Positions 3,005 to 15,695 of a stretch of 39,396 nt of DNA are shown one piece after another. The notes under the pieces are model-generated. The model saw only the letters and a list, made by a program, of their open reading frames with translations. It was not told where the DNA came from and did no database searches. Numbering within the stretch: the stretch's first letter is position 1; every line of letters begins with the position of its first letter. This stretch comes from Candidatus Levybacteria bacterium RIFCSPHIGHO2_02_FULL_37_13 (GTDB taxonomy: Bacteria > Patescibacteriota > Microgenomatia > Levybacterales > UBA12049), in NCBI GenBank assembly GCA_001782195.1, contig MFNZ01000001.1:32403-71798 (forward strand), read 5' to 3'. The position numbers were made by a program, and so were the translations under genes.

Positions 3005-4579
3005 ATGAACAATATACAAAGAATTATTATTGTTGGAATTATCCTGGTAGGAGTAGGTATTTATTTATACTCAAACAGCAGAGTGCTGGATCAAAAAGGC
3101 GGATTTTCTACTACGACGGAAAATTATCCTCTTGCAAAAGAGACTGAGACTATCGAACTTGAAAATGGTGATAGTTATAATTTAACTGCAAGTATTGTAA
3201 GGAAAACGATAAATAGTCAGGAAGTAAAAATGCTTGCGTATAATGGTTCAATTCCTGGCCCCTTGATAAAAGTTCCTCAAGGTGCAGAAATCACACTAAA
3301 TTTTAAAAATGATATTGATGTTGATAGCACAATCCACTCACATGGAATAAGAGTTGAAAATAAATTCGATGGTGTTCCGGATGTTACTCAAAAAGCAGCG
3401 AAACAGGGGGAGAGTTTTACTTACAAATTAAAATTTCCAGATGTTGGAATTTTTTGGTATCACCCGCATGTTCGTGAGGATTACGCTCAAGAGCTTGGAT
3501 TATATGGAAACTTTCTGGTTACGCCTCCACAAAAAGATTACTGGGCAGAAGTTGATAGAGAGGAAGTGCTCTTTCTGGATGATATTCTTATTGAGAATGG
3601 AAAAATCGCGCCATTTAGCAAATCGATAGTAGACCATGCCCTAATGGGAAGATTTGGCAATGTAATGCTTATTAATGGAAGCGATAATTATAAATTAAAT
3701 ATAAAACAGGGGGAAAGAGTTCGCTTCTACATAACAAATGCCGCAAATACCCGGGTATTTAATTTTTCGATTCCAAATATCCGTATGAAATTGGTTGGGG
3801 GAGATAACGGAAAGTATGAGCGTGAAGAATGGGTTGATTCGGTAGTAATAGGACCGTCAGAACGCGCAGTGGTTGAGATTTGGTCTGAGGAGAACGGAGA
3901 GTATCAAATTGTCCACAAGACTCCTGATAAGACTTATGATATAGGAATGATCGCGGTTGAGGAGTACCCGGTTACTGTTTCATACTTTTTAATCGCCCGA
4001 ACGAATCAAGATTTAATCGATTCGCTAAATCCACTTCGTGCGCTTTTTTCCAAAAATCCTGATAAAACTCTTAACTTAACTATTGATATGATGGGTGGCA
4101 TGATGGGAAATCAACAGGGTGGTCATATGATGCCGGACGGATCAATGATGGGAGGAAACATGATGATGGGGGATTCAAATGAAAAGATAGAATGGGAGGA
4201 TGATATGTCTATGATGAATACGATGTTTACCAACAAAACATTGAAGTGGAAGCTGGTTGATGATGCAACGCAAAAAGAAAATATGGGCATTGATTGGCAA
4301 TTTAAAAAAGGCGATAAGGTAAAAATCAAAATCTTTAACGATCCGGATTCGGATCATCCAATGCAGCACCCAATTCATATTCATGGACAGAGATTCTTGG
4401 TTGTAAGCACAAATGGAATCCAAAACCAAAACCTAGTCTGGAAAGATACGGTTTTGGTTCAAAATGGCGATACTGTTGAATTATTGGTTGAGATGGACAA
4501 TCCAGGAGATTGGTTAATCCATTGTCATATTCCGGAACATATGGAAAGTGGTATGATGAGTAAGTTCGAAGTTTTGTAG
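3005..4579 (+). CDS. Multicopper oxidase, laccase/CueO-like, membrane-anchored
   Basis: A 524-residue three-cupredoxin oxidase with an N-terminal membrane anchor (residues 6-23). All four copper motifs are intact: HSHG (His111, His113), WYHPH (His153, His155), HPIHIHG (His455, His458, His460) and HCHIPEHMESGM (His506, Cys507, His508, His512, axial Met517). This gives a type 1 site and a trinuclear cluster able to couple substrate oxidation to reduction of oxygen to water. A Met/Gly-rich loop at about residues 362-390 resembles the methionine segment of CueO, a cuprous oxidase. The role is probably oxidation of Cu(I) outside the membrane, supported by the metal genes around it; a phenol-oxidising laccase remains possible. 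Confidence 0.93.
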   Translation: MNNIQRIIIVGIILVGVGIYLYSNSRVLDQKGGFSTTTENYPLAKETETIELENGDSYNLTASIVRKTINSQEVKMLAYNGSIPGPLIKVPQGAEITLNFKNDIDVDSTIHSHGIRVENKFDGVPDVTQKAAKQGESFTYKLKFPDVGIFWYHPHVREDYAQELGLYGNFLVTPPQKDYWAEVDREEVLFLDDILIENGKIAPFSKSIVDHALMGRFGNVMLINGSDNYKLNIKQGERVRFYITNAANTRVFNFSIPNIRMKLVGGDNGKYEREEWVDSVVIGPSERAVVEIWSEENGEYQIVHKTPDKTYDIGMIAVEEYPVTVSYFLIARTNQDLIDSLNPLRALFSKNPDKTLNLTIDMMGGMMGNQQGGHMMPDGSMMGGNMMMGDSNEKIEWEDDMSMMNTMFTNKTLKWKLVDDATQKENMGIDWQFKKGDKVKIKIFNDPDSDHPMQHPIHIHGQRFLVVSTNGIQNQNLVWKDTVLVQNGDTVELLVEMDNPGDWLIHCHIPEHMESGMMSKFEVL

Positions 4580-7012: not shown

Positions 7013-7366
7013 ATGATAAATGTCGAGATTATTCCAATTGCTATGCTTCTTGTACAAATACTTCATTCTGTTGAAGAATTATCAACAGGCTTTCATAAAA
7101 AGTGGTACTTTACTAAGCTTTCTTTTAAAACTTTCTTAATCTTTGAGATAATTCACAACCTCTTTTGGTCATTAGTAGTTTTTATTAAAGACTTTCCTTA
7201 CAGAAGTGAGCTGCTACTTTTTTTTATAGCATTAATGTTTGCAAATGGAGTTCAGCATATTGTTTGGTTTGGATTCAAGAAGAAATATGTACCAGGTCTC
7301 ATAACCGCACCAATTCATATTGTGCTATTTTTTATATTTTATTTTCAATTTCTTAGATTCATATGA
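7013..7366 (+). CDS. HXXEE-domain membrane protein
   Basis: A 117-residue protein with about four hydrophobic helices. It contains the family signature HSVEE (His18, Glu21, Glu22), then NGVQH (Asn79, His83) and YVPGLITA (Tyr93, Pro95, Gly96), which together define HXXEE proteins. These polar residues sit within or beside the helices and could form a metal or catalytic site; the family has no known activity. The stop codon overlaps the AMP phosphorylase start as ATGA, so both are made from one mRNA. Confidence 0.8.
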   Translation: MINVEIIPIAMLLVQILHSVEELSTGFHKKWYFTKLSFKTFLIFEIIHNLFWSLVVFIKDFPYRSELLLFFIALMFANGVQHIVWFGFKKKYVPGLITAPIHIVLFFIFYFQFLRFI

Positions 7367-8868
7367 AACAGCATGCCTTAAACCAGTTAAGGGTAAAATC
7401 AATCGGTATTGACACATACCGCGAGAATATCATTTATATGCGGTCAGACTGTTACATCTGCATTTCTGAAGGATTCACAGCATTGACAAGAGTTGTCGTC
7501 GTCCACAAGGAGAAAACGATCGTCGCCACTCTCAATGTTGTTACCTCAAATATTCTTTCTCACGAAGAAGCAGGACTTTCTGAAATTGCCATGAGAAATC
7601 TTGCTGTAAAAGATGGCGATATTATTTCAATCTCCCATCTTAAACCGATTTCTTCACTGCATGATGTACGGGCGAAAGTATACGGAGAGAAACTGAACGA
7701 TGCGGCACTGACAAGAATTATTGCCGATGTGACAAATGGATTATATTCAGATCTTGAATTGTCCGCATTTATTACCGCATCTGCCGGCGATAATCTTGAT
7801 ATAGACGAAATCACAGGTTTGACAAAAGCCATGATTGATTCGGGTACAAAGATGCGTTGGAATACGAAAATTGTGCTGGACAAACATTGTGTTGGCGGTT
7901 TGCCCGGAAACCGCACCACTCCGATTGTGGTTGCGATTGTTGCCGCGGCAGGATTAACTATTCCCAAGACATCTTCGCGGGCAATTACCTCTCCTGCCGG
8001 AACAGCCGATGCAATGGAAACAGTCACTTCGGTGGATCTAACTCCTGAAAAAATACGTGAGGTTGTTGCTAAAGAAGGCGGATGTATTGTTTGGGGAGGA
8101 TCAGTTAATCTCAGCCCCGCAGATGATATTCTCATAGCAATTGAGAAAGCGCTTGATCTGGACAGTAAAGGGCAAATGATTGCCTCTGTCCTTTCCAAAA
8201 AAAAAGCAGCAGGCTCAACGCATGTGGTAATTGATATTCCCGTAGGAAAAACAGCAAAAGTCAGAACAGAGAAAGAAGCCCTGCGGCTTGAGCAGTATTT
8301 CAAAGAAGTTGGAAAATCAATTAATCTTACTGTTGATGTACTCATTACCAACGGATCGCAACCCGTAGGGAGAGGAATTGGTCCAACTTTAGAAGCGATG
8401 GATTTTCTTGCTGTGTTGCGAAATAGTAAAAATGCTCCGCAAGATTTAAAGCAAAGAGCATTGACAATTGCGGGCGCCCTGCTTGAACTTTCCGGAAAAG
8501 TAAAAAAGGGTGAAGGAGAAACAAATGCAAAACAAATTCTTGAAAGCGGAAAAGCTTGGGACAAATTTTACAAAATCTGTATCGCGCAGGGAGGATACAA
8601 GGAACCGCGTTTGGCAAAATACAAAAAAGAAATTGTGTCTCATGCAAAAGGCACGGTCACAGAAATAGACAATAGGAAATTAGCCAAGATTGCCAAACTT
8701 GCCGGCGCTCCTAAATCTCCTTCGGCAGGTGTATATTTTTGCTCGCCGTTAGGGACTAATGTTGTGAAAGGCCAGACATTATTTATAATTTATTCTGATG
8801 CAAAAGGGGAATTGGATTACGCTTTCGATTATCTCAATTCAATTAACGATGTTATCAAGCTTCAATGA
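7363..8868 (+). CDS. AMP phosphorylase (archaeal-type, thymidine phosphorylase superfamily)
   Basis: This enzyme of 501 residues, close to the roughly 503 of archaeal AMP phosphorylases, converts AMP and phosphate to adenine and ribose 1,5-bisphosphate. The N-terminal swivel domain (residues 1-85) is the extension that separates AMP phosphorylase from classical DeoA. The catalytic core shows KHCVGGLPGNRTTPIVVAIV, KTSSRAITSPAGTADAME and GGSVNLSPADD, and the C terminus carries the EIDNRKLAKIAKLAGAPKSP barrel-sandwich segment. In archaea and CPR bacteria it feeds ribose-1,5-bisphosphate isomerase and form II/III or III RuBisCO; neither partner lies in this window. It overlaps the HXXEE gene by 4 bases and precedes the P1B ATPase by 24. 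Confidence 0.93.
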   Translation: MKQHALNQLRVKSIGIDTYRENIIYMRSDCYICISEGFTALTRVVVVHKEKTIVATLNVVTSNILSHEEAGLSEIAMRNLAVKDGDIISISHLKPISSLHDVRAKVYGEKLNDAALTRIIADVTNGLYSDLELSAFITASAGDNLDIDEITGLTKAMIDSGTKMRWNTKIVLDKHCVGGLPGNRTTPIVVAIVAAAGLTIPKTSSRAITSPAGTADAMETVTSVDLTPEKIREVVAKEGGCIVWGGSVNLSPADDILIAIEKALDLDSKGQMIASVLSKKKAAGSTHVVIDIPVGKTAKVRTEKEALRLEQYFKEVGKSINLTVDVLITNGSQPVGRGIGPTLEAMDFLAVLRNSKNAPQDLKQRALTIAGALLELSGKVKKGEGETNAKQILESGKAWDKFYKICIAQGGYKEPRLAKYKKEIVSHAKGTVTEIDNRKLAKIAKLAGAPKSPSAGVYFCSPLGTNVVKGQTLFIIYSDAKGELDYAFDYLNSINDVIKLQ

Positions 8869-8892: not shown

Positions 8893-11172
8893 ATGACAAA
8901 ACAGAAGCAAACGTATACATGCCCAATGCATGCTGAGGTTCAATCAGATAAACCCGGAGCCTGTCCAAAATGTGGCATGAAGCTTGTTCCTTCACGGAAG
9001 AAAATGGAGCATGAAAACATAGATATACATACCATGAAGCCAGTTTCTGGAATGGGTTTTTGGGAAAAATTCAAGATGAGTATGACAATGAGCATGGGAA
9101 TGGAACATACGGGTTTAGCAGGACGTGAAATGGCAAAGCTCATGGAAGAGGATATTCGCAATAAATTTTTCGTATCTTTACTTCTTACAATTCCAATTGT
9201 CGCTTATTCTCCTCTTGGAATGAATATTTTCGGTTTACAGTTGTCTACCCCAATACCCGCTAACTGGATCATGTTTTTATTAACAACTCCTGTGTTTTTC
9301 TATAGCGGATGGATATTCCTCTACTCAAGCTACATTGCGCTCAAGCAAAAAACCCTTAACATGGCTGTTTTAATTGCGGTTGGAATTACAGCAGCCTACT
9401 TTTTCAGTATTGTTCTAACATTAATAGGGAGTCAGGAATCGTTTTATGAAGCAGCGGCAATGCTTACCACTTTTGTCCTTTTTGGCCATTGGATGGAAAT
9501 GAAATCAAGAAGAGGAACAACAGATGCTCTGCAAGCGCTTTTTAATCTGGTTCCTCCTAAAACAAGAGTAATTCGAAATGGAAAAGAAGAACTTATTCCT
9601 ACTTCCGAAGTAAAACTTGGAGATATTATTCTTCTTAAACCGGGAGATAAAGTACCTGTTGACGGAGAAATAGTAGAAGGTGAAACAGCGATTGATGAAT
9701 CGCTTGTTACCGGAGAGTCAATCCCTGTTGCAAAGAAAAAAGGAGACAAAGTTATTGGAGGTTCAATTAATCAATCAGGATCAGTGCAGTTTAGGGCAAC
9801 TAAAATAGGCGAAGATACAGCTTTGGCACAAATTGTAAAAATGGTTGAAACCGCCCAAAACTCAAAAGCTCCCGGACAAAAACTTGCCGACAGGTTTGCA
9901 AAGTATCTTGTGATAGTAGCAGTAGGCGGAGGATTATTAACATTTACGGTTTGGTTTTTTATAATGGGTCAGCCTCTTCTTTTTGCTCTCACTTTTGCTA
10001 TTTCAACAGTTGTTATTGCCTGTCCCGATGCGCTTGGTCTTGCAACCCCCACGGCCGTAGCAGTAGGAACAGGACTTGGAGCAAAACATAATATTTTGAT
10101 AAAAGATGCGCCGACTTTAGAGCAGGTTTCAAAAGTTCAGGCAATTGTCCTTGACAAAACAGGGACGCTGACAGAAGGGAAACCCACCGTAACTGATATA
10201 GTATCAGTTACGGAATTTCCAATTTCCAATTTCCAATTTCCAATGAAAACAAAAATATCAAATGAACAAAAGGCTCTCTGGTTTATTGCTTCTGTAGAAA
10301 AAAACTCGAGTCATCCGCTAAGTAAAGCTGTTCTTGAAAAAGCGAAAAAAGAAAAACTTACCCTGAGCAAAGTCGAAGGGTTCAAAAACCTTGCAGGGCA
10401 TGGTGTCGAGGCAGTTGTTGTAGATTCGGCAGGCTCACCACAAGCTGGGAAACACGTACTTGTTGGTACCGTGAGGTTAATGAATGATAGAAAAGTAGAC
10501 ATTACTCCGCTTCAAAAAGATATTGATAGGTTGCTCTCTGAAGGGAAAACAATTATGGTACTTGCAGTTGATGGAAAAATAGCAGGCGTTGCAGGAGCAG
10601 AGGATCCAATTAAACCAACGGCAAAAATAGCAATCGAGAAAATGATGAAACTAGGACTTGAAGTAGCGATGATAACAGGGGATAACAAAAAAACAGGAGA
10701 GACCATTGGAAAAAAGCTTGGTATAAAACGAATTTTTGCTGAAGTTCTTCCCGAAGATAAAGCTTCGTTTGTTAAAAAACTTCAGGACGAAGGAAAATTT
10801 GTGGCTATGGTAGGGGATGGCGTCAATGATGCGCCTGCTCTTGCTCAGGCCGATATCGGAATTGCAATAGGAGCCGGAACAGATGTGGCAATAGAAACTG
10901 CGAAAGTGGTGCTTATGAAATCCGATCCGGCTGATGTTCTGCGGGCAATTCGACTTTCTAAAGCAACCGTAAGAAAGATGAAGCAAAACCTTTTCTGGGC
11001 GTCGATTTATAATTTACTCGCAATTCCTGTTGCGGCTGGCGTTTTATATCCAGGCTTTCAAATATCGCTTCGTCCTGAAATATCAGCGCTTTTGATGAGC
11101 CTTTCCTCAATAATTGTTGCTACAAACGCAGTTTTGTTAAATAGAGCGGAAAAAGATTTAATTGATGTTTGA
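8893..11172 (+). CDS. P1B-type metal-transporting ATPase with N-terminal HMBD and CPD motif (CopA/CopB-like)
   Basis: A 759-residue heavy-metal pump. A heavy-metal-binding domain (residues 8-33, YTCPMHAEV...CPKCGMKLVP) and a Met-rich stretch precede the membrane helices. The actuator has TGES, the phosphorylation site is DKTGT (Asp421), and the hinge is GDGVNDAP (Asp642, Asp646). The last helices hold YNLLAIPVAAG and MSLSS, residues associated with Cu(I) selectivity. The membrane metal motif is CPD (Cys377-Pro378-Asp379) instead of the CPC or CPH seen in most copper pumps. An unusual segment after the phosphorylation site (about residues 438-455) is encoded by simple repeats. The start has AAAGGTGAT upstream. 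Copper export is the best guess. Confidence 0.93.
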   Translation: MTKQKQTYTCPMHAEVQSDKPGACPKCGMKLVPSRKKMEHENIDIHTMKPVSGMGFWEKFKMSMTMSMGMEHTGLAGREMAKLMEEDIRNKFFVSLLLTIPIVAYSPLGMNIFGLQLSTPIPANWIMFLLTTPVFFYSGWIFLYSSYIALKQKTLNMAVLIAVGITAAYFFSIVLTLIGSQESFYEAAAMLTTFVLFGHWMEMKSRRGTTDALQALFNLVPPKTRVIRNGKEELIPTSEVKLGDIILLKPGDKVPVDGEIVEGETAIDESLVTGESIPVAKKKGDKVIGGSINQSGSVQFRATKIGEDTALAQIVKMVETAQNSKAPGQKLADRFAKYLVIVAVGGGLLTFTVWFFIMGQPLLFALTFAISTVVIACPDALGLATPTAVAVGTGLGAKHNILIKDAPTLEQVSKVQAIVLDKTGTLTEGKPTVTDIVSVTEFPISNFQFPMKTKISNEQKALWFIASVEKNSSHPLSKAVLEKAKKEKLTLSKVEGFKNLAGHGVEAVVVDSAGSPQAGKHVLVGTVRLMNDRKVDITPLQKDIDRLLSEGKTIMVLAVDGKIAGVAGAEDPIKPTAKIAIEKMMKLGLEVAMITGDNKKTGETIGKKLGIKRIFAEVLPEDKASFVKKLQDEGKFVAMVGDGVNDAPALAQADIGIAIGAGTDVAIETAKVVLMKSDPADVLRAIRLSKATVRKMKQNLFWASIYNLLAIPVAAGVLYPGFQISLRPEISALLMSLSSIIVATNAVLLNRAEKDLIDV
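10214..10241 (+). repeat. Four tandem AATTTCC units inside the P1B ATPase gene
   Basis: Four perfect copies of the 7-mer AATTTCC lie head to tail within the nucleotide-binding domain and encode part of FPISNFQFPM. The 28 bases resemble the intergenic TTTCC/GGAAA repeats at 22185 and 27179 rather than normal codon use, suggesting a repeat inserted into a tolerant surface loop. Confidence 0.7.
10362..10379 (-). repeat. Dispersed 18-mer (copy inside the ATPase gene)
   Basis: On the minus strand this stretch reads CCTTCGACTTTGCTCAGG, identical to 20177-20194 in front of ychF. Here it encodes LSKVEG. A diverged relative lies at 13269-13287. Confidence 0.7.
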
Positions 11173-13264: not shown

Positions 13265-13293
13265 TTGACCCATTCGATTTCACTCAGGGTCAA
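13265..13293. repeat. Short inverted repeat related to a dispersed 18-mer, possible terminator
   Basis: TTGACCC (13265-13271) and GGGTCAA (13287-13293) form a 7-bp stem. The loop and flanks contain CCATTCGATTTCACTCAGG, a diverged version of the 18-mer at 20177. It sits 25 bases after the stop of the preceding gene and could end its transcript, although there is no U-tract. Confidence 0.45.
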
Positions 13294-13314
13294 CACTGAG
13301 TAAGTTCGAATGTG

Positions 13315-13343
13315 TTGACAAGAATTATAGAATATTTTATTAT
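13315..13343 (+). promoter_or_regulatory. Consensus promoter of the SAM-riboswitch transcript
   Basis: TTGACA at 13315-13320 and TATTAT at 13338-13343 are separated by exactly 17 bases. The expected start is near 13350, giving a leader of about 170 bases that contains the hairpin at 13361, the riboswitch and the terminator. Confidence 0.75.
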
Positions 13344-13360
13344 AAGCATAGTTTAATAAA

Positions 13361-13383
13361 TCCAGCACCGAATTGGTGCTGGA
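13361..13383 (+). other. Perfect 9-bp hairpin at the 5' end of the riboswitch leader
   Basis: TCCAGCACC and GGTGCTGGA pair perfectly around a GAATT loop, ending one base before P1 of the riboswitch. No U-tract follows, so it is not an intrinsic terminator. A 5' stabilising stem, or a helix stacking on P1, is plausible. Confidence 0.6.
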
Positions 13384-13384
13384 T

Positions 13385-13484
13385 AAATCAAGAGCGATGG
13401 GGAGGGAATTGGCCCGTTGATCCATCCAGCAACCCTGAGGCGACTCGAAGGGTGCTAAACCCAACCCGTTAAAGGGAAGGATTT
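13385..13484 (+). promoter_or_regulatory. SAM-I (S-box) riboswitch aptamer
   Basis: The S-box core is recognisable base by base. P1 is AAATC (13385-13389) with GATTT (13480-13484). J1/2 is AAGAG. P2 pairs GATGG with CCATC around the kink-turn GGAGGGA...GGCCCGTTGA. J2/3 is CAGCAACC. P3 is ACCCT...AGGGT capped by GAG-GCGA-CTC, a GNRA loop. J3/4 is GTGCTAAACC, able to pair with the P2 loop as the pseudoknot. P4 is CCC...GGG. The family binds S-adenosylmethionine and usually switches genes off. Bases 13471-13477 (AAAGGGA) can pair with 13499-13505 (TCTCTTT), giving an antiterminator that competes with the downstream terminator. Confidence 0.9.
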
Positions 13485-13495
13485 CGTTTTTTTTG

Positions 13496-13523
13496 ACCTC
13501 TCTTTAATAAGAGAGGTTTTTTT
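13496..13523 (+). terminator. Riboswitch-controlled intrinsic terminator that also hides a ribosome site
   Basis: ACCTCTCTT (13496-13504) and AAGAGAGGT (13509-13517) form a 9-bp stem with a TAAT loop, followed by seven T (13517-13523). The 3' arm, GAGAGG, is also the Shine-Dalgarno of the gene starting at 13524, seven bases away, so folding would block both transcription and translation. Confidence 0.85.
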
Positions 13524-13757
13524 ATGAAAGAGAAGGTGCCAAACGGGAATGACCAACATCAAAAGTTTGCCCGACTTAGAAGACAGGTAAGAGCAATGCA
13601 GCGTCAAAATTTAGAACCGCCTCAAGCTCTGCTAGAACAATTAGTAGAACTTGATAATAGGTTGACAGGAAGCTATCCGGGATGGGTAACTAATTTCCCT
13701 TCCGCAAAAGAAGTAGACAATGGGGCGGGGAAGATACATAATATGAGAGTTAGGTGA
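13524..13757 (+). CDS. Small basic protein of unknown function under SAM riboswitch control
   Basis: A 77-residue soluble protein, rich in Gln and Arg, with a helical first half (FARLRRQVRAMQRQ and ALLEQLVELDNRL) and a less structured tail. No family is recognised. It starts directly after the U-tract of the riboswitch terminator and uses the terminator's 3' arm as ribosome site. Its stop overlaps the next start as GTGA. Being the first gene after a SAM-I switch, it might relate to methionine or SAM supply, but nothing in the protein itself shows this. Confidence 0.6.
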   Translation: MKEKVPNGNDQHQKFARLRRQVRAMQRQNLEPPQALLEQLVELDNRLTGSYPGWVTNFPSAKEVDNGAGKIHNMRVR

Positions 13758-14878
13758 AAAAGATAATATTGATTGTTGCGGCAGTAATATTTGCTGTAGT
13801 CTTTATTGCGGTAGCATACTTTATCACAGTTAGAATCTTCAATGGGATTGTTGGAAATATTACTAACGATATTATAGGCAGTTTGATAGGAGGGTCTCAA
13901 GAAATAGAGAAAAAACCCTGTACAACTCCTAGACATCAAAGGGAATTTAATTCGAACGCTTATTATGAGGGGCCATTGATTGATTCTCATGTCCATTTTC
14001 CTACATCTTCTACAATTGTCAGCAGTGTAGCCCAACAGAATGGTTTGGAGATGCCGGTTTTGGAAGGCGAAATAAGCGGAAATAATTTAGTTTGCCTTTT
14101 TGAAAGTGAAGGGATTACAAAAACTTTTGGTTTTCATATAACTTCCAAGTTTGCAGAAGACTCTGCAATTTCAACTGCCAAAGCTATTGAAAAGGCATAT
14201 CCTGGAAAAATTGTCCACTTTTTAATGCCTCCTCCCATAAGATCTTTAAATATTAATCCTTCCGGAATAAAGAGGATTCTTGAGGACAATAAAGGAGTGT
14301 TTAAAGGTTTTGGAGAAGTGGCTCTTTACATGGATGGATACGGAGGAGTAAAGCCCGATGACCCTGAGTTTAAGGAAATTTACAAACTAGCTGACGAACA
14401 TAGCTTAATAGTTATGATACATCCTGAAGACAATCAAAGAGATGGTGTGGAGGAGATTTTAAGAGAATTTCCCAATGTTACCTTTTTCTTTCATGGAGGC
14501 AGGAATCAGGAATGGATTATTGATTTAATGCCAAAGTATAAAAACTTTTATTATTCATTGGATGCTGATTTGATTTCACTTTATCTAGATAAAGAAACCA
14601 ACAGGAGTCAGAAGCTGACTAAGGAGGAATTCTTAACCTATATCAGGGGAAATTTTAACTCAGTTTTGGATAATGCTGTATCTAGATGGAAGGAAAGAAT
14701 TACAGTAAATCAGGATAGATTTACCTGGGGAACAGATCGGTGGTTTGCCTGGCATTTTGATCCGCAAGTAAGTGGAATACTGGAAGAGTTTGGGAGATCG
14801 TTTATTGGAAGGTTGGATGTATCAGTTCAAGAAAACTTTGCCTACAGAAATGCTGAAAGGATGCTAAAAACACCTTAA
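13754..14878 (+). CDS. Membrane-anchored amidohydrolase-family metal-dependent hydrolase
   Basis: This 374-residue protein has an N-terminal membrane helix (residues 3-26), a linker and a TIM-barrel of the amidohydrolase_2 type. The metal-site residues are visible: HVH (His79, His81) in LIDSHVHF, Glu188 in GFGEV, His223 in MIHPED, His247 in FFHGG and Asp328 in WGTDRW. The active site would face outside the cell. The substrate is unknown. Translation starts at GTG 13754, overlapping the preceding stop. The SAM riboswitch upstream implies expression when SAM is scarce, so hydrolysis of an external compound yielding a methionine or methyl source is a testable idea. Confidence 0.82.
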   Translation: MKKIILIVAAVIFAVVFIAVAYFITVRIFNGIVGNITNDIIGSLIGGSQEIEKKPCTTPRHQREFNSNAYYEGPLIDSHVHFPTSSTIVSSVAQQNGLEMPVLEGEISGNNLVCLFESEGITKTFGFHITSKFAEDSAISTAKAIEKAYPGKIVHFLMPPPIRSLNINPSGIKRILEDNKGVFKGFGEVALYMDGYGGVKPDDPEFKEIYKLADEHSLIVMIHPEDNQRDGVEEILREFPNVTFFFHGGRNQEWIIDLMPKYKNFYYSLDADLISLYLDKETNRSQKLTKEEFLTYIRGNFNSVLDNAVSRWKERITVNQDRFTWGTDRWFAWHFDPQVSGILEEFGRSFIGRLDVSVQENFAYRNAERMLKTP

Positions 14879-14963: not shown

Positions 14964-15695
14964 ATGTCTATTAACTTTAGAAGTGATTACAAGCTGCATT
15001 TGAGTTTTATTGTATTTTTTGTACTGATGTTTTTTCTGTTGGGGGAACAGCTGGTGGCCTTGCCGACTTATTTATTGGGAGCAGAAAACGTAGGTGAAGG
15101 TCCTGCTAAACTTCATATACTTGACTTAGGTCTAAGCGATTCACTTCATCGTCCTTTTGCCTATTTGATAATTGGTACAGTAATTTGGATTCTGTATAGA
15201 ATGTTTGCCTGGCCATTAGCTTGGTTTGTGGGAGCAGCTCTTTGGATTTTAGAGCAACGGACATTAACCCCGCTGGATCAACGCCCAACACTTATTAATA
15301 CAATAGTTTTTACATTCACTTTCTGGATTCTTCTTACCCTAATTCCATATTTTATTTTCAGATGGGTGGATAAAAAGTGGGGAGGGAAAGGTATAAGAAA
15401 TGCCATCCTGATTATATTGATAGTAAATCTTTTAATCTTTGGTTTTTTTGCTTTTCAAATTTATGTTTTGCATCACTCATATCGTGGTTCCCATTATCAG
15501 AATAAAGGACAGAAAGGCTCTCAAGGCATTTCAGATTCCATGCGAGTGTTGCCTCCGAATACCTGTCCTGACCGTTTAATTACATCAAAAGATAAACAGA
15601 CAGCTGTGTATTGGAATGGAAAGACTCAGCCAGTGGATGCTGAAGAGCAGAAATGGATAGAGCAAAACTGCCCGGAAGCGTTAGGGAATCCTTAG
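14964..15695 (+). CDS. Multi-pass membrane protein with a Cys-containing extracytoplasmic tail
   Basis: A 243-residue protein with about four membrane helices in residues 10-170 and a polar C-terminal tail containing two cysteines (NTCPDRLIT and EQNCPEALG) that could form a disulfide outside the membrane. No family is recognised. It lies 85 bases after the amidohydrolase gene in the same direction; the gap contains an imperfect hairpin (TCCATCCC with GGGTGGA) but no U-tract, so read-through from the SAM-regulated transcript is possible. Confidence 0.65.
   Translation: MSINFRSDYKLHLSFIVFFVLMFFLLGEQLVALPTYLLGAENVGEGPAKLHILDLGLSDSLHRPFAYLIIGTVIWILYRMFAWPLAWFVGAALWILEQRTLTPLDQRPTLINTIVFTFTFWILLTLIPYFIFRWVDKKWGGKGIRNAILIILIVNLLIFGFFAFQIYVLHHSYRGSHYQNKGQKGSQGISDSMRVLPPNTCPDRLITSKDKQTAVYWNGKTQPVDAEEQKWIEQNCPEALGNP

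Follow-up and report, generated by a model that had tools for sequence, protein, structure and literature searches.

What does a SAM-I (S-box) riboswitch control when, unlike most of its relatives in the same bacterial class, it is followed by no recognised methionine gene? This question is raised by a 39,396-nt stretch of DNA from Candidatus Levybacteria bacterium RIFCSPHIGHO2_02_FULL_37_13 (GCA_001782195.1; contig MFNZ01000001.1, positions 32,403 to 71,798), hereafter referred to as the window, in which the riboswitch precedes genes for a 77-aa protein, a membrane-anchored amidohydrolase and a 243-aa membrane protein. The host genome comprises 1.09 Mb on 66 contigs and is 84% complete. As its class relatives are by name Microgenomatia (Daviesbacteria, Woesebacteria and others), the initial assignment to a CPR genome, made from the sequence of the window without database searches, was correct.

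Our preferred reading, to which we assign a probability of roughly 0.8, is that a genuine SAM-I switch, turned OFF by SAM, heads a single transcript in which the 77-aa protein is a regulon member, and the amidohydrolase and the membrane protein constitute a separate surface unit.

A full-length SAM-I aptamer upstream of the 77-aa gene

Comparison with Rfam revealed a plus-strand SAM-I match (RF00162) at positions 13382–13487 that spans the full model (positions 1–108); its 54.2 bits clear the gathering score of 44.4 (E = 6e-10 when the entire window is searched) and bear out the S-box aptamer that the first-pass annotation had read from the sequence. No second Rfam match occurs in the window, nor a second SAM-I match anywhere in the genome. 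Helix P1 is formed by nucleotides 13385–13389 and 13480–13484 and the L2–J3/4 pseudoknot by TTGG (13409–13412) and CCAA (13461–13464); P1 to P4 and the conserved junction residues are all present, as seen from the full-length match and from invariant columns common to 22 relatives. The leader also folds more stably than shuffled sequences (z = –4.5). The SAM-I riboswitch before the 77-aa gene is real, and its family membership suggests that 13382–13487 binds SAM. In its four helices, kink-turn region, pseudoknot and terminator platform, the leader resembles other members of RF00162. It differs from the typical SAM-I switch in its CPR host, in its target (an orphan protein of small size, followed by a hydrolase at the cell surface) and in a terminator arm that also serves the first gene as ribosome site.

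Upstream of the aptamer, a candidate sigma-70-type promoter (13315–13343, plus strand) consists of TTGACA at 13315, a 17-nt spacer and TATTAT ending at 13343. It matches 11 of 12 consensus positions, in agreement with the consensus promoter noted in the first pass, and was identified purely by this match; promoter-like sites in the region were not clearly enriched by count (8 vs. 4.5 expected, sd 2.1). Between the upstream 141-aa gene and this promoter, a long imperfect hairpin (13267–13316; about –19 kcal/mol) may terminate the upstream transcript. The 5′ hairpin described earlier was recovered on the plus strand at 13360–13384 as a perfect 10-bp stem (–18.3 kcal/mol), whose 3′ arm runs into the start of P1; visual inspection of relatives showed no counterpart.

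A sequence scan placed an intrinsic terminator directly 3′ of the aptamer on the plus strand, with a 10-bp stem at 13495–13518 and a U tract extending to 13523. Within its 3′ arm lies the Shine-Dalgarno sequence AGAGAGG (13510–13516), 7 nt upstream of the ATG at 13524. The terminator arm is thus also the ribosome site of the next gene, just as had been claimed, and this motif arrangement is unique to 13510–13524 within the window. The linker between aptamer and terminator measures 7 nt, compared to typically 15–35 nt in relatives.

The antiterminator proposed in the first pass (plus strand) fared less well. Its seven pairs between AAAGGGA (13471–13477) and TCTCTTT (13499–13505) do exist, but forcing them gives a fold (–38.6 kcal/mol) that falls 5.6 kcal/mol short of P1 plus terminator (–44.2 kcal/mol), and the 3′ strand of the aptamer complements the terminator arm to a degree close to chance, in this leader (z = –1.4) as well as over 67 leaders (median –1.1), on which ground a class-wide antiterminator was rejected. 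A helix spanning 13471–13505 is therefore retained as a possibility only. That such complementarity does not exceed chance, here or class-wide, obscures how the ON state would form and, together with the short linker, counts against our preferred reading.

SAM-I riboswitches in Microgenomatia

The first-pass annotation had regarded SAM-I as unexpected in such a clade, a view contradicted by its distribution: at E ≤ 0.001, RF00162 was detected in 75 of 374 sampled Microgenomatia genomes, 30 of which exceed the cut-off, with metK and other methionine genes as its main targets, and in 19 of 82 genomes of the host's order. Among the class aptamers, P1, P2 and P3 covary, with pair changes on both sides, and the L2–J3/4 pseudoknot is complementary in all 42 scorable leaders, covarying through six combinations.

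Inspection of the first genes downstream of 90 class leaders revealed metK in 42 cases and another methionine gene in 11 (Cys/Met-type PLP enzyme, 6; MTHFR, 2; MetE, 2; metA, 1). Five leaders were followed by a small ORF and then metK, MetE or a PLP gene, eight by other genes, two by the contig end and 22 by a short first ORF. Two of these 22 are doubtful, one with its first listed ORF 604 nt away (L007) and one cut by the contig end (L019). Another encodes a GAF-domain protein according to a Pfam scan (L187), which, reading its sequence by eye, we take to resemble free-methionine sulfoxide reductase. The 19 other short first ORFs scanned gave no Pfam match, leaving about 20 class leaders that drive a short protein without such a match. 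SAM-I switches in the class are mostly a canonical regulon, controlling metK, metA, MTHFR, MetE and Cys/Met enzymes as is familiar for SAM-I; given the target counts over the 90 leaders, a small orphan protein behind SAM-I is recurrent and not peculiar to the window.

A terminator-like hairpin was found just 3′ of the aptamer in 68 of the 90 leaders, 57 of them with a Shine-Dalgarno-like 3′ arm in a fused platform that typically reads ACCTCTC...GAGAGGTTTTTTATG; the motif definition was loose, and these counts are descriptive. Since Shine-Dalgarno-like 3′ arms are common, the terminator stem probably blocks both transcription and translation in class leaders. Taken further, the window's leader might be a mainly translational switch, in which the hairpin masks AGAGAGG and termination is secondary. 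That the ribosome site coincides with the 3′ arm in most class leaders, and that several metK leaders (L170, L177, L185) carry a sequestering hairpin and hardly any Ts, or none, is in line with this. The window, however, combines a strong stem with a U7 tract, as an intrinsic terminator requires, and we consider a mainly translational switch rather unlikely.

In five genomes from one family of the class (L155, L163, L176, L190, L194), SAM-I and an orphan ORF of 90–131 aa converge head-on with ahcY. The ends of the orphan ORF and ahcY abut or overlap by a few bases, and a PfkB-like kinase gene follows ahcY where the locus reaches far enough. Judging from this orientation, the switch facing ahcY could act in antisense, reminiscent of the antisense S-box of Clostridium acetobutylicum ubiG-mccBA (PMC9943018); as of 2023, only two antisense riboswitches were counted as known (PMC9943018). 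In contrast to the Clostridium case, the ahcY loci of the class also encode a small protein, and the window is not so arranged.

Other leaders of the class precede a variety of genes. For instance, one (L009:442-1455, minus strand) lies before a 338-aa protein with a weak, below-cut-off match to SAM hydroxide adenosyltransferase (PF20257), an odd target given that such an enzyme would destroy SAM. Another precedes a methyltransferase recognised by Pfam (L006), and three precede unassigned proteins that look methyltransferase-like by eye (L003, L022, L174), followed in L003 by a homocysteine S-methyltransferase. Leaders from two genomes (L004, L156) stand before related proteins of 444–446 aa, of which that of L004 combines a histidine-phosphatase domain with a weak guanylate-kinase-like match. 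One genome that retains SAM-I carries a metK fragment of 63 positions with two internal TAA stops (G080:C5:52481-52669), likely a pseudogene.

A relative of the 77-aa protein in another SAM-I operon

The first gene of the operon (13524–13757, plus strand) encodes a 77-aa protein that belongs to no family in Pfam or NCBIfam; a single-sequence prediction of modest confidence gives a helical hairpin (residues 8–27 and 34–47) with a disordered tail. In calling it an unknown protein, the first-pass annotation was right as to family, but the protein is not without relatives. Across 374 class genomes, one other match at E ≤ 0.001 was identified, a 67-aa protein from another family of the class (G330:C24:4351-4530). 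Its operon comprises a SAM-I leader, the gene for a 380-aa Cys/Met-type PLP enzyme (PF01053) and, after 10 nt, the 67-aa relative.

The similarity of the two proteins scored 23 bits, compared to a maximum of 12 in 20,000 shuffles, and is not reported by pairwise BLASTP. Its per-genome E of 1.5e-4 is modest on its own when taken over 374 genomes; yet, because the relative sits inside a SAM-I operon, a chance match is unlikely. Neither the host's order nor 45 genomes of the order containing G330 yielded a further relative. Having but a single relative, missed by BLASTP, counts against our preferred reading. With the operon position in G330 as the best evidence, we count the 77-aa protein as truly belonging to the clade's SAM/methionine regulon. 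A decayed MTHFR was considered as well, a single-sequence phmmer search having returned 7.6 bits (0 of 2000 shuffles as good), but was ruled out by a two-sequence profile, which scored 0 bits and was equalled or beaten by 53 of 2000 shuffles.

The amidohydrolase and its membrane partner

The stop of the 77-aa gene overlaps by 4 nt with the GTG start of a gene for a 374-aa Amidohydro_2 protein (13754–14878, plus strand; PF04909, E = 7.8e-11, 42.7 bits vs. a cut-off of 26.4), a start that is confirmed by the alignment, from residue 1, of a homolog with ~70% identity. The structural model (pLDDT 86.8) shows a barrel plus an N-terminal membrane helix, and the ligand residues D77, H79, H81, H223, H247 and D328 are invariant in 21 amidohydrolase sequences. 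Domain match, membrane helix and overlap uphold the earlier description of an anchored amidohydrolase in the operon. Barrel fold and HxH, H, H, D ligands are those of the Amidohydro_2 (COG2159-like) metal hydrolases, whereas the N-terminal anchor, a CPR/DPANN-centred family (65 loci spread over CPR and DPANN genomes) and a partner membrane domain, fused in one genome, set the protein apart.

This partner, a 243-aa membrane protein (14964–15695, plus strand), is probably the third gene of the transcript, as the 85-nt gap before 14964 contains no terminator-like site on the plus strand. It is homologous (E = 9e-6) to a membrane domain that, in L027/L089, forms the N-terminal part of a fusion with the amidohydrolase; given this fusion, the amidohydrolase and the 243-aa protein are probably a functional pair.

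Expecting the same arrangement in relatives, the first-pass annotation had pointed to a search for the S-box beside either protein. For the 77-aa protein this returned the G330 operon; for the amidohydrolase, SAM-I was found at none of the 65 loci (flanks up to 4 kb) and at none of 10 class loci. No neighbour recurred in more than 4 of the 65 loci. Both SAM-I and the 77-aa gene are lacking in the best relative (Daviesbacteria, L025/L073; identity about 70%), and in two genomes (G098, G244) SAM-I and an amidohydrolase relative are both present on different contigs. Among the loci examined, the linkage between amidohydrolase and SAM-I is confined to the host genome, and we count this against our preferred reading. 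All four observations would fit a switch that meaningfully controls the 77-aa protein only, the amidohydrolase and membrane protein being passengers that arrived via rearrangement or transfer. The 4-nt overlap, from which joint translation of the first two genes is expected, argues against passengers, as does the sequence between these genes, which holds no separate terminator and no good promoter (one 10/12 site, 13714–13742). We see the chances of this alternative as about even.

Attempts to derive a function for the amidohydrolase from sequence or solved structures yielded matches at superfamily level only. Its fold neighbours—decarboxylases, COG3618 hydrolases, ACMSD and TatD—share about 12% identity with it, and no methionine-related function emerged from sequence and fold searches. 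This bears on the first-pass proposal that the operon represents a new way to scavenge methionine or methylthio compounds, here at the cell surface. Induction at low SAM would suit such a role, as would a host with ahcY and no obvious methionine synthesis. However, none of the distant fold neighbours is methionine-related, and the amidohydrolase relatives have neither a SAM-I link nor conserved neighbours, making scavenging very improbable.

Methionine and SAM genes of the host

Family searches of the host genome, in which absences are uncertain at 84% completeness, gave no match to metK, to the MetE C-terminal domain or to homocysteine S-methyltransferase (HMT). A Cys/Met-type PLP gene was likewise not found, the PF01053 hits examined being DegT and class I/II aminotransferases; ahcY is present. 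In the host's order, metK is absent from 34 of 82 genomes searched, including 16 of the 47 best ones. The lack of metK in the 84%-complete host counts against our preferred reading, as the source of SAM is not evident.

Together with the shortened 7-nt linker, the missing Cys/Met PLP, MetE, HMT and metK genes would agree with a relic leader whose original target (e.g. a PLP or methionine gene, cf. G330) was lost and whose operon is decaying. Yet nothing is missing from aptamer, pseudoknot, terminator or ribosome site, and the reading frame of the 77-aa protein is uninterrupted and has its relative in another SAM-I operon. We therefore deem a relic unlikely.

Elsewhere in the window, translations read by eye indicate a multicopper-oxidase-like protein and a copper-type P-type ATPase (3005–4579 and 8893–11172), possibly a metal-handling cluster. 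A thymidine/AMP phosphorylase-like gene (7363–8868) scored above the cut-off of the NCBIfam subfamily NF003338 and below that of the AMP phosphorylase model.

A putative response to SAM limitation

According to our preferred reading—a SAM-I switch in the OFF state when SAM is bound—the ligand would hold P1 and allow hairpin 13495–13518 to form, thereby ending transcription and masking the first gene's ribosome site. At low SAM, read-through by the polymerase would yield the 77-aa protein and, by way of the 4-nt start/stop overlap, the amidohydrolase, and probably also the 243-aa membrane protein. The latter two would act as a separate surface unit, which was either recruited to serve when SAM is low or simply brought along.

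The riboswitch class is known; the operon is unusual. The clade's repeated use of SAM-I before small uncharacterised proteins appears to be undescribed in the literature searched, and a search of 5.39 million open-access papers turned up none that describes natural riboswitches of CPR bacteria. Riboswitches have been raised as possible genetic tools in one relevant paper, and the need for CPR expression tools has been named (PMC11665869). Tentatively, and with the odds somewhat against it, we suggest that Microgenomatia SAM-I switches run fast-evolving small proteins such as the 77-aa one, alone or with methionine genes, as an undescribed response to SAM limitation. If true, these proteins would be required at times of SAM shortage, in CPR bacteria that rely on an external supply of SAM or methionine. 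The class-wide SAM-I regulon points to RNA as a SAM sensor in these reduced organisms; it offers a way into small proteins that otherwise give no clue to their function, and SAM-I would provide a native switch for CPR expression tools.
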